A stretch of 64,000 nucleotides of DNA from Hyphomicrobiales bacterium. GTDB lineage: Bacteria > Pseudomonadota > Alphaproteobacteria > Rhizobiales > Rhizobiaceae. The stretch is from the NCBI GenBank assembly GCA_002401155.1, contig NVSG01000001.1:1127051-1191050 (forward strand). Reading direction: 5' to 3'. Below the pieces are notes generated by a model that had not been told where the DNA came from, ran no database searches, and saw only the letters and a list, made by a program, of their open reading frames with translations. Each line of letters begins with the position of its first letter. Position 1 is the first letter of the stretch. Below, one piece after another: positions 31 through 32,825 of the stretch. A program made the translations under genes and the position numbers.

Positions 31-606
31 ATGATTGAGAACCAGGAACTGATAATTGATAGCGAAATACTAACCACCAAAGATTTGGTGTTGCGCCCGC
101 CTCATGCCGAGGATGCGCAGGATTTACGCAAGCTGGCCAATAATATCAATATTGCTAAAAATCTGGCCACCATGCCGTTTCCGTATTTCGACGCTGATGC
201 CCATGACTTCCTGAAAAAAGTCACAGGCAGCGCCAATTCAGGCTACACGTTTGCCATCACCAACACCGAGAGCGGTGAGATGATGGGAATTTGTGGCCTG
301 CATGAACCCAATGCCCGCTATGAATTGCCATATATTGGCTATTGGCTGGGCGAGGCCTATTGGGGCAATGGCTATGCGACACAGGCCGCGCGGGCTTTGG
401 TTGATCTGTTCTTTAAGACAGGCACCAAGGACGCAATGATGATTTCCTGCATTCGCGATAACGCAGCTTCAAGGCGCGTTATCGAAAAATGTGGTGGTGT
501 ATATTGGAAACCGAGCGAAGAATTTGCTTCTACGTTGGGACAAAACCATTTGATGGATAATTTCCGCATAACCCGTGAAACATGGATGGGTGCGGTTGCT
601 GGATAA
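31..606 (+). CDS. GNAT-family N-acetyltransferase, RimJ/RimL-like
   Basis: Predicted acetyl-CoA-dependent N-acetyltransferase of 191 residues, the usual length for a single GNAT domain. The N-terminal LVLRPPHAEDA segment is the typical first strand and helix of RimJ/RimL-like enzymes. WGNGYATQA at residues 111-119 is the acetyl-CoA pyrophosphate-binding loop. RDNAASRRVIEKCG near residue 150 is the family's C-terminal signature. A GGAGG ribosome site lies 5 bases before the ATG. It precedes obgE in the same direction, an arrangement common in Hyphomicrobiales. The substrate (protein N-terminus or small molecule) cannot be read from the sequence. Confidence 0.85.
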   Translation: MIENQELIIDSEILTTKDLVLRPPHAEDAQDLRKLANNINIAKNLATMPFPYFDADAHDFLKKVTGSANSGYTFAITNTESGEMMGICGLHEPNARYELPYIGYWLGEAYWGNGYATQAARALVDLFFKTGTKDAMMISCIRDNAASRRVIEKCGGVYWKPSEEFASTLGQNHLMDNFRITRETWMGAVAG

Positions 607-620
607 AGCAGTTTGAGTAA

Positions 621-2788
<2,168 letters not shown>

Positions 2789-5211: not shown

Positions 5212-5693
5212 TGCAGATTTCCATTCTGGCCATCGGCCGGATGAAATCCGGGCCGGACCTGTCGCTGTTTGAGCGCTATATGGACCGTGCCAATAAATCT
5301 GGAAAATCACTCCATTTAAGCGGCCCCGATTTACGGGAATTCACCGAAAGCCGGGCCGCAACCAGTGATTTGCGAAAAATGGATGAAGCTGGCCCACTCC
5401 TTTCAGCAGCATCTTCGGATACCTATCTCATCGCTCTGGACGAAAATGGCCGCGACGTTTCCAGCGTCCAGTTTGCCGAAATCATCCGCAATTTGCGCGA
5501 TGATGGCACAAGACATCTGGCAATCGCCATTGGCGGACCCGATGGCCACGGCAAAGACCTGTTGCAAAAAGCCAATAAAACCATCCGCTTTGGTGCCATG
5601 ACATGGCCCCATCAACTGGTGCGGATTCTGCTGGCTGAGCAAATTTACCGCGCCACAACAATACTATCAGGACATCCCTATCACCGGGCCTAA
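5211..5693 (+). CDS. rlmH: 23S rRNA pseudouridine-1915 N3-methyltransferase
   Basis: SPOUT-class methyltransferase that modifies pseudouridine 1915 in helix 69 of 23S rRNA using S-adenosylmethionine. It has 160 residues, the family's normal length. The SAM-binding knot shows as AIGGPDGHG followed by the C-terminal LAEQIYRATTILSGHPYHR, the most conserved part of RlmH. ATG 5211 overlaps the rsfS TGA as TGATG. A TTG one codon upstream (5208) is a less likely start. Confidence 0.95.
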   Translation: MQISILAIGRMKSGPDLSLFERYMDRANKSGKSLHLSGPDLREFTESRAATSDLRKMDEAGPLLSAASSDTYLIALDENGRDVSSVQFAEIIRNLRDDGTRHLAIAIGGPDGHGKDLLQKANKTIRFGAMTWPHQLVRILLAEQIYRATTILSGHPYHRA

Positions 5694-31265: not shown

Positions 31266-31305
31266 GGTTCGATAAAACCATCTGTTTTTCCAAAAAAATA
31301 GAAAT

Positions 31306-32190
31306 TCAGGCTGGAAAAACACGCTCCCACCGTTTCGATGCCCTATCGCGAAAACAATTTCCAAATATCTGCCTCGAAACTTCCGCTGATACATATTGCG
31401 CACCTGCAACAATCACAGCAGCTTCTTCAGTCGTCCTTCGTACCGGGTTGTACTTGTCACCCACCAATTCTGGCCAACTGGAAATTGTTCGAAGAATACG
31501 TGCAACATCAAGATTCGGAAAGTATATAGGCAGGTCCTTGATGATTTTCTGAGTATCGTGCCCATATTCTTTTCTACATTGCTCTTCACTTTTACCTGCT
31601 GCAATAAGGCCAGTTTTTAGGGCAAGCTCGGTCGCAATCACCCCACTCTGAACAGCGCCATTCTGGCCGGTTCTATCTGACAGGGCTGCTGTAGCTGTAC
31701 ACAAATATCCTCTTGCATTGTCAAACCATGACTGAACACGCTCACCATATTGGAGACTGCCATTTAGTCCTTGGTATTGTTTGTCCATATCAAATATGTC
31801 TCCAAACTGATCCAAAATGTGCTTAAGAGAATAATCGTCCTTTTCAATGCGAATTCTTTGAACCTCTGGAATTTCGATATGGTCCATAGGGATAATTGGC
31901 CGACGACCAAGCACCGTCGGCACAGTCACCTTAAATATAAATTGCTCCCAAACAACGATGCCTACATGGTGATTAAGAACACGATCCTCTTTAGGATAAA
32001 TTTTCTCCAAAGCATTGTTAATGCGTTTTTCGTCGGAAGAAATAGGACCTCCATATAGAAATATATTCACCCCTAATCTGTTACAAACCCTTTCTTTAAG
32101 CATTAACGTTCTGGCAAATAATGGATGGCCTTCCGCTTGAAGTTTCACATCTTCCTCATCCAGAATTTTTAACAAATCAACTTCATCCAT
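31306..32190 (-). CDS. Hypothetical protein with HEPN-like C-terminal domain
   Basis: 294 residues. The first 145 are a mixed region I do not recognise. The C-terminal half is helical with a HEPN-like pattern: E188 and K192 in TELALKTGLIAAGK, then RKEYGH at 206-211, which fits the R-x4-H motif of HEPN ribonucleases, and a closing helix TTEEAAVIVAGAQYVSAEVSRQIF. HEPN proteins often occur in toxin-antitoxin and defence systems, and this gene is 33 bases from a BrnT/BrnA pair on the same strand. Whether it has RNase activity is not shown. Confidence 0.55.
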   Translation of the reverse strand: MDEVDLLKILDEEDVKLQAEGHPLFARTLMLKERVCNRLGVNIFLYGGPISSDEKRINNALEKIYPKEDRVLNHHVGIVVWEQFIFKVTVPTVLGRRPIIPMDHIEIPEVQRIRIEKDDYSLKHILDQFGDIFDMDKQYQGLNGSLQYGERVQSWFDNARGYLCTATAALSDRTGQNGAVQSGVIATELALKTGLIAAGKSEEQCRKEYGHDTQKIIKDLPIYFPNLDVARILRTISSWPELVGDKYNPVRRTTEEAAVIVAGAQYVSAEVSRQIFGNCFRDRASKRWERVFPA

Positions 32191-32223
32191 TTGCTATGTC
32201 GCCCCACTACAATTTATTAGGTA

Positions 32224-32541
32224 TCAACCAGCTCTCTTATGAGCATCCATATATGATTTCAAAACCGCATTGATGCGGGTTTGGTAACCCTTACCTGCCC
32301 CTTTAAACCATTCCAGAACATCGCTATCCAGACGGATGCCAACCTTCACTTTTTCAGATGGCATGACCAACGTCGCCTCATCCCAAAAACCGGATGGTAT
32401 CGCGTCAGAATCATCAGCAATTACTGTTTCAATTTCTTTTTCGGTCAAAGCCTTAACCCGCTTGGAAAGCGGTTTGGGTTCCGGCATATCGTCCAGACTG
32501 CTATAGCTGACCACATGCTTTTTCGTAAATTTGTCGGTCAT
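32224..32541 (-). CDS. brnA: BrnA-family antitoxin
   Basis: 105-residue antitoxin. The C-terminal ribbon-helix-helix VKVGIRLDSDVLEWFKGAGKGYQTRINAVLKSYM is the BrnA signature and would bind both DNA and BrnT. The N-terminal part (KRVKALTEKEIETVIADD, PSGFWDEA) is the usual BrnA arm. The ATG lies inside brnT (41-base overlap), as is common for this pair. Expected to neutralise BrnT and repress the operon. Confidence 0.88.
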   Translation of the reverse strand: MTDKFTKKHVVSYSSLDDMPEPKPLSKRVKALTEKEIETVIADDSDAIPSGFWDEATLVMPSEKVKVGIRLDSDVLEWFKGAGKGYQTRINAVLKSYMDAHKRAG

Positions 32542-32779
32542 TTTTACTAGCCCTCCATGCTGATATTATTCGACGGTTATTATTGCGGTGGGTATAGACA
32601 ACGCACAGCACAACGCCATCATATGTGCCAAGCGCGATCAGGCGCTTTTCACCATAGTTCTTACGGGTATCAACCCGCTCTAAAACAGGGCTTCTGAATA
32701 TCTGGGACGCTTCCACAAAACCAATGCCATGTTTGGCAATGTTCATCGCTTCCTTATCCGCGTCCCATTCAAAGCCCAT
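32501..32779 (-). CDS. brnT: BrnT-family ribonuclease toxin
   Basis: 92-residue type II toxin with a RelE-like fold expected to cut RNA and arrest growth. FEWDADKEAMNIAKHGIGFVEASQIF is the conserved N-terminus, and GEKRLIALGTYDGVVLCVVYTHRNNNRRIISAWRASKNDRQIYEK holds the basic catalytic residues. Intact start and stop. It is the first gene of the pair and lies immediately beside lpdA, so the islet sits in the gap between TraB/GumN and the TCA cluster. Confidence 0.88.
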   Translation of the reverse strand: MGFEWDADKEAMNIAKHGIGFVEASQIFRSPVLERVDTRKNYGEKRLIALGTYDGVVLCVVYTHRNNNRRIISAWRASKNDRQIYEKACGQL

Positions 32780-32806
32780 ATCTTAATATAGGCGCTATCT
32801 ATACAT

Positions 32807-32818
32807 TTGTCTAGACAA
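32807..32818. promoter_or_regulatory. Palindrome upstream of brnT, candidate BrnA operator
   Basis: TTGTCTAGACAA is a perfect 12-base palindrome 28 bases upstream of the brnT ATG. BrnA proteins repress their own operon, so this is the natural candidate operator. A second, weaker inverted repeat (TATAG...CTATA) lies between it and the gene. Confidence 0.45.
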
Positions 32819-32825
32819 GCAAGAT

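Follow-up and report, generated by a model that had tools for sequence, protein, structure and literature searches.

A predicted HEPN-domain gene behind a BrnT/BrnA toxin-antitoxin pair in a Hyphomicrobiales genome, and the family to which it belongs

Organization of the locus

The window analysed here, a stretch of 64 kb from a Hyphomicrobiales bacterium, contains a variable slot of 1560 bases (31266-32825) that separates a plus-strand traB/gumN gene from a minus-strand lpdA gene (both names are labels of the first-pass annotation). Three minus-strand genes had been described in this place, and their open reading frames are indeed found there in the order brnT, brnA and a third gene, which we call X. 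The first gene, brnT (32501-32779, minus strand), encodes a toxin of 92 residues that matches the Pfam family BrnT_toxin (PF04365; E 1.1e-23, 83.8 bits against a cut-off of 34.5), and brnA (32224-32541, minus strand) encodes an antitoxin of 105 residues that matches BrnA_antitoxin (PF14384; E 2.2e-16, 60.4 bits against a cut-off of 26.1), so that the names given to the pair stand far above the thresholds of both families. The toxin gene comes first and overlaps brnA by 41 nt, and a gap of 33 nt separates brnA from X (31306-32190), which has the same orientation. The product of X, defined from its open reading frame, a predicted fold and 15 full-length relatives, has 294 residues and consists of an N-terminal half (residues 1-147; 31750-32190, minus strand), marked by residues invariant across 16 proteins, and a predicted HEPN domain (residues 148-277; 31360-31749, minus strand), delimited by its structural match to the PDB entry 1ufb. 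The traB/gumN gene is the convergent neighbour downstream of X. The limits first given for the islet, 31306-32818, are right at the end of X and have to be moved at the other side, where brnT starts at 32779 and positions 32780-32818 are its promoter region.

The content of the slot differs between related genomes. Two genomes of the same genus were searched for traB, and it was found in one of them (G002), whose DNA is 85% identical to that of the window on the lpdA side and 82% identical on the traB side. In this genome the gap between the two genes measures 518 bases versus 1560 in the window, and it is occupied, on the strand opposite to lpdA, by a ParE-family toxin gene (PF05016, E 1.6e-14) and a small overlapping ORF (L031:5037-5336 and 5329-5502); neither X nor brnTA was detected in this slot by tblastn. 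The corresponding gap has 448 bases in G005, with no toxin recognised by eye, and 1233 bases in G010, where it holds an ORF of 191 residues. From these differences, it is probable that the lineage of the window acquired the brnT-brnA-X block or received it in exchange for other genes, and at least two toxin families have used the slot. The small ORF beside the ParE-family gene has no match in Pfam, and it is perhaps the antitoxin of that gene.

The BrnTA pair and its promoter region

BrnT has K16, H17, F28 and E86, which resemble in kind and numbering the residues K17, H18, F29 and E86 described as essential for a BrnT-like toxin in PMC10714953. The introduction of the same paper reports autoregulation by BrnA and by BrnTA in Brucella. 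In the window only 46 bases separate the stop codon of lpdA from brnT, and they include a perfect palindrome of 12 bp, TTGTCTAGACAA (32807-32818), that we consider a candidate operator for BrnA. Allowing up to one mismatch, this sequence has a single match in the 64 kb, where 0.11 would be expected; perfect 12-bp palindromes of any sequence number 17 in the window. A promoter-like site on the minus strand (TAGACA-17-TATATT, 32785-32813) overlaps the palindrome at its -35 element; the three such sites present in the region do not exceed the number found in shuffled sequences (mean 3.7), and the position of the site is therefore its sole support. No promoter-like site was found on the same strand between this promoter and X.

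A search for BrnT gave matches in 43 of 111 genomes, and 30 brnT loci, including that of the window, were compared. The closest pair among them (L085, G1439:C53; 70% identity in BrnT and 64% in BrnA) carries the same 12 bases, here extended to a palindrome of 16 bp, at a distance from brnT that is within one base of that in the window. Elsewhere, a palindrome of at least 12 bp with a different sequence precedes brnT in two of the 30 loci, and none of that length was found in the other 26. The conservation of the palindrome at a nearly equal distance in L085 constitutes fair comparative evidence that it may be an operator.

The gene that follows brnA in L085, approximately 200 nt away and on the same strand (234-1019, minus strand), encodes a DUF4145 protein (PF13643, 57.3 bits against a cut-off of 23.1), the only one found in genome G1439, that matches the PDB entry 9y9c (24 chains, DUF4145 domain-containing protein) with an E value of 5.7e-48. 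Since DUF4145 is treated as a HEPN family in PMC3710099, the BrnTA pair of the window and its closest relative found each precede a gene of the HEPN superfamily, from a different family in each case; this pairing was looked for with DUF4145 in two genomes and with family X in 30 loci. A profile search of the 30 brnT loci returned only the X of the window, and no brnTA was detected by tblastn in the 15 loci that carry relatives of X.

These data bear on whether X and brnTA are functionally coupled or entered an insertion-tolerant slot on separate occasions, with the toxin-antitoxin pair doing no more than stabilising it. The G+C content of X (0.427; GC3 0.356) is lower than that of brnA and brnT (0.46), which suggests a separate arrival; likewise, the relatives of X have many different partners, no second brnTA-X pair appeared in the 30 brnT and 15 X loci, and the slot of G002 is occupied by a ParE-family gene. 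On the other side, the gap between brnA and X, which share their orientation, is short and X has no promoter-like site directly before it, and a HEPN-superfamily gene likewise stands behind the nearest BrnTA relative found, whose palindrome is identical. We therefore regard independent cargo as a rather unlikely explanation, and favour an arrangement in which X would be transcribed together with brnT and brnA.

Two other observations on BrnT were made. A second BrnT, 41% identical, is encoded in the genome of the window (G000:C3:284603-284860). At another locus (L102, G1437:C2), BrnTA is followed on the same strand by an ORF of 327 residues in which the motif VEVKTT was seen by eye near the start, and which we presume may encode a nuclease.

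Predicted fold of the X protein

The AlphaFold model of X, obtained from an alignment of six rows, has a mean pLDDT of 73.9 and a pTM of 0.70. Its C-terminal half is made of helices (149-171, 176-197, 202-209, 213-222, 229-236 and 254-276), and residues 148-277 superpose on 1ufb, which we take to be a HEPN protein, with a Z score of 16.4 and an rmsd of 1.8 over 118 residues (VIA-align). The next matches are the HEPN domain of sacsin (3o10, Z 15.5), 2hsb (14.8), 1wol (14.7), 1o3u (14.5), 4nqf (13.8) and 2q00 (10.9). Of the seven best entries, all but 1ufb and 2q00 have HEPN in their title. HEPN RNases appear further down, i.e., Csm6 (Z 9.2) and the HEPN toxin 7ae8 (8.2). According to the caution given with VIA-align, Z scores near 13 can arise between helical bundles from their common arrangement alone; the best six matches, with 13.8 or more, are above this level, and unrelated entries start at 8.0.

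Other searches with X were negative: Foldseek alone and a viral fold library gave no E value below 0.001 for the model, searches of PDB sequences with X and with a profile of nine rows gave nothing meaningful, and at a threshold of E≤1 none of the libraries Pfam, NCBIfam, PADLOC and PHROGs contained a family that X matches. When X and seven full-length relatives were scanned for the HEPN family PF05168, six of the relatives gave matches with E values of 0.001 to 0.032 (14.8-19.6 bits), all below the cut-off of 22 bits, which was reached neither by X (nothing at E≤1) nor by the relative L055 (nothing at E≤0.01). These weak matches represent sequence evidence that is independent of the fold comparison. 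Together, the predicted fold of residues 148-277 is clearly of the HEPN type; structure prediction had been proposed as the way to check the first-pass suggestion of a HEPN-like protein, and the model upheld it instead of revealing an unrelated fold.

The active-site motif

The residues R206, K207 and H211, with E188 and K192 upstream, were read from the translation of X, and the segment E188-x3-K192 ... R206-x4-H211 (31558-31629, minus strand) is its predicted active site. The R-x4-H motif at residues 206-211 and the preceding E and K had been pointed out from the sequence and are confirmed. They agree with the Rx4-6H motif of catalytic HEPN proteins and with the Ex3[KR] motif of the superfamily, the latter as described in PMC3710099. 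In the alignment of X with its 15 full-length relatives, all 16 proteins share E188, K192 and H211 even though identity to X is no higher than 18-27% among the relatives, and from this conservation the motif is more than a coincidence. Other invariant positions of this half are Q181, L189, L195, P240, V243, Y247, Q265 and R273, and also the column of R290, which lies within a poorly aligned tail. The arginine is more variable: it stands at x4-x6 before the invariant histidine in 7 of the 16 proteins and at x3 in another five (x4 to the next histidine), and it is replaced by lysine in the remaining four.

This variation means that catalysis is no certainty for the family as a whole, and it favours a reading in which X is a non-catalytic HEPN protein with a nucleotide or RNA as its ligand, which serves as a sensor or regulates its neighbours, with E, K and H in a structural or ligand-binding role. 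The HEPN domain of sacsin is one of the closest structural matches, and in PMC3710099 human sacsin is described as devoid of the motif and the family of 2hsb as typically devoid of the histidine. Nevertheless, H211, E188 and K192 do not vary in the family, X itself retains the canonical R-x4-H, and the same source describes a family, Parep1/8, that keeps the histidine without conserving the arginine, whose role other basic residues could take over. A non-catalytic X is for these reasons unlikely, and most likely X acts as a metal-independent RNase with E188, K192, R206 and H211 in its active site.

The X family

Used alone as a query, X found no relative in phages or viral contigs, none besides itself in the genomes of 40 relatives, and none in 288 other genomes of the class; the viral contigs were also negative with the family alignments. 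Only tblastn against plasmids gave access to the family, and it yielded copies in Sphingobium and Pseudomonas hygromyciniae and then in Croceicoccus. A profile search added five relatives (Rhizobium, a Euryhalocaulis MAG, Pseudomonas, a Sphingomonadales MAG and Microvirga), and profile searches of whole genomes contributed seven more that are full-length. Profile matches were present in 4/385, 5/398, 10/249, 8/198 and 1/199 genomes, counts that include the own or centre genome, come from partly overlapping samples and contain many HEPN-only or broken copies. The alignment was restricted to 16 full-length proteins, and truncated, broken or HEPN-only sequences were left out (among others L010-L012, L035, L037, L038, L049-L053 and L064-L067).

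Both halves of the protein are present in all 16 members, as required by the selection of full-length sequences, and seven residues of the N-terminal half are invariant (D14, G21, R27, G77, G95, D131 and D134 in the numbering of X). This half, of about 147 residues, has no match in Pfam in the case of X, in line with its initial description as unfamiliar; it may be a sensor or partner domain, as was suggested then. Modelled alone it gave a low-confidence structure (pLDDT 63.8, pTM 0.49), and a fold search with this model returned no Z score of 8 or more, only weak and mixed matches with a maximum of 6.3. Four relatives (L054-L057) have, ahead of the conserved N-terminal domain, the sequence CxCGSGKRxKHCxG, and L055, the one among them that was tested, matches the SEC-C family (PF02810) at 6.8e-8. 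In the tree X groups with these four proteins, on a branch so long (2.54) that its placement there is unsure. The literature search found no paper joining SEC-C and HEPN, and we could not match X to any described HEPN family, which is a statement about our matching and not a claim of absence from print.

Truncated or broken copies of the gene occur (L035, L049, L050 and L065), and a Pseudomonas and a Rhizobium member are 84% identical; both facts are signs of a mobile accessory gene. One relative of X (G657:C7:291162-291592; L035, L060) is split in two frames, one of its matching segments being interrupted by a TGA, and is a decayed copy.

Gene neighbourhoods of the X relatives

The genes around the relatives of X were picked by eye for scanning, and a defence gene recognised by PADLOC was present within approximately 4 kb of 10 of the 15 relatives. 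Complete Gabija systems were found in two cases: in L009, GajA (4.7e-226) and GajB (1.5e-132) directly precede the X relative, and in L004, GajA (1.9e-266) and GajB (6.7e-233) are followed by a gene annotated as an IS5 transposase and then by the X relative, with a caspase-family gene further along. Weaker matches were obtained in L005 (GajA-like 1.5e-47 and GajB-like 5e-20, on the opposite strand) and in L003 (a GajB-like helicase, 2.4e-23, about 4 kb upstream). In L055 the X relative is next after hsdS of a type I restriction-modification system (REase_I with an E value of 0, MTase_I 5.7e-220, and Methylase_S by Pfam). The remaining neighbours are ABC-3C genes (CTD10, DUF2326; PDC-M68A/B in PADLOC) in L070; PDC-S06 (6.5e-187) and HipA in L069; PDC-S51 (3.2e-71) and an Avs1b-like NACHT protein (2.6e-24) in L007; an Avs1b-like protein (1.3e-18) in L056; and PDC-M11A (3.4e-120) in L002. 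A gene with a PIN domain is located near the relative in L068. No PADLOC match was seen in L006, L008, L054, L057 and L068, of which few or no genes were scanned with PADLOC. In L009, L004, L055, L069 and L070 the neighbouring system precedes the X relative and has the same orientation, which is not the case in L005, L056 and L002.

As a control, 12 regions half a contig away on the same contigs were scanned (112 genes of at least 150 residues, PADLOC E≤1e-40), and the systems were assigned to regions in phmmer searches with six proteins as queries. Recognisable defence systems were present in at least 2 of the 12 regions (Gabija in L079 and type I restriction-modification in L072), as judged from the best 25 of 37 matched families; L078 is probably the source of an RtcR-type match and by eye resembles an ordinary two-component regulator. 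On the same contigs and at the same threshold, at least 6 of the 12 X loci were positive (L005, L007, L009, L055, L069 and L070), a difference that is not significant (one-sided Fisher p 0.097) and that gives p 0.045 if the weaker Avs1b-like match of L056 is counted; the comparison is not even-handed because the genes on the X side were picked by eye. The enrichment of defence genes around the relatives of X is thus suggestive. It had been proposed that the locus is a defence islet and that homologues should be sought beside toxin-antitoxin or restriction genes. Such neighbours were found in L055 (type I restriction), L068 (PIN) and L069 (HipA), and the contexts are not always housekeeping ones, given the ten relatives near PADLOC genes; the proposed setting is supported by these neighbours, with an excess over the control that falls short of significance.

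Some of the loci suggested to us another origin for X, as the toxin of a toxin-antitoxin or sensor pair of its own, whose partner was lost by the copy in the window, this copy now being held by BrnA or inactive. The candidate partner is a gene of about 280-312 residues that is shared by L005 (6841-7776), L006 (33-878) and L068 (6778-7716), where it is 88% identical and its end shares 4 nt with the beginning of the X gene; the L006 and L068 copies have no PADLOC match, and that of L068 matches ORF_12_N in Pfam below the cut-off (0.0028). In L069 and L070, other genes stand directly upstream of the X relative. However, tblastn detected the shared gene at no further X locus, not even in the close relatives L003 and L007, and it is hence not obligatory; at E 1e-3, the genes upstream in L069 and L070 show no similarity to it or to each other. 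A dedicated partner appears quite improbable, and the family is better described as an accessory one that joins different modules.

Three large genes near the X relative and the type I restriction genes of L055 (L055:2206-7435) look by eye like transposition genes of the Tni/Tn7 type, as we take them to be, and suggest that X may travel as transposon cargo.

A possible mode of action

The explanation that we prefer is that X is a HEPN RNase encoded by the trailing, accessory gene of a brnT-brnA-X operon under the control of BrnA, and as a whole it has, in our estimate, an even chance of being correct. Family X would be a mobile accessory family whose members are often added as the trailing gene to differing defence or toxin-antitoxin modules, and in the window X would have become the third gene of the operon. 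BrnA, alone or with BrnT, would bind TTGTCTAGACAA before brnT and keep the expression of the operon low. Upon stress or infection the loss of BrnA would free BrnT and also derepress the operon, X included, and two RNases, BrnT and presumably X, would then halt growth, which would give the islet a role in defence.

A broader and more tentative version, which we consider unlikely as it stands, is a composite system in which BrnA would lock two RNases both at the level of transcription and as a protein, the HEPN gene being exchangeable (X in the window, DUF4145 in G1439) and family X serving as a plug-in RNase effector that trails modules as different as Gabija, type I restriction, ABC-3C and toxin-antitoxin pairs. 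If true, two unrelated RNases would be under the control of one antitoxin, and several unrelated defence systems would have reused a single trailing effector; the notion of swappable second-line effectors shared among defence systems would then be open to a direct test. HEPN RNases beside defence systems are already known as a kind, and what stands out here is that BrnTA may share its operator with, and so be coupled to, a further RNase, an exchangeable one of the HEPN type. Family X will probably escape annotation, considering that X has no match in the four profile collections and that the scanned relatives are below the HEPN cut-off.

Comparison with known systems

Family X resembles the HEPN superfamily of the PF05168 type, as presented in PMC3710099, in the predicted fold, the Ex3K motif, the histidine of Rx4-6H and the occurrence of restriction or toxin-antitoxin genes nearby. 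It differs in being below the Pfam cut-off or undetected, in its variable arginine and in its additional conserved N-terminal domain, preceded in four relatives by a SEC-C-like zinc motif. The pair in the window is a BrnTA type II system (PF04365/PF14384) in having two overlapping genes with the toxin first and both families over the cut-off, and its promoter palindrome, as a candidate operator, would fit the autoregulation reported in PMC10714953; it is distinguished by a third gene on the same strand, which encodes the HEPN protein. Two known arrangements were considered and rejected. A HEPN-MNT toxin-antitoxin pair does not agree with BrnA and BrnT as the upstream neighbours and with no nucleotidyltransferase match among the genes scanned, and Gabija is not part of the islet of the window, whose three genes have no PADLOC match, complete systems being found only beside L004 and L009.

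The combination of PrrC with PrrI, as outlined in PMC3710099, likewise places a HEPN gene as a second line beside another defence system, and the X relative directly after hsdS in L055 recalls it; X differs in that Pfam reveals no ABC ATPase domain in it and in the varying partners of its family. In the CoCoNuT systems, according to PMC11090510, a BrnT-like RNase is encoded directly upstream of, and in the same direction as, a locus with HEPN RNase effectors, which is also the order in the window; the islet described here, in contrast, has three genes with neither a McrB-like GTPase nor a coiled-coil gene, and a real BrnA follows BrnT.
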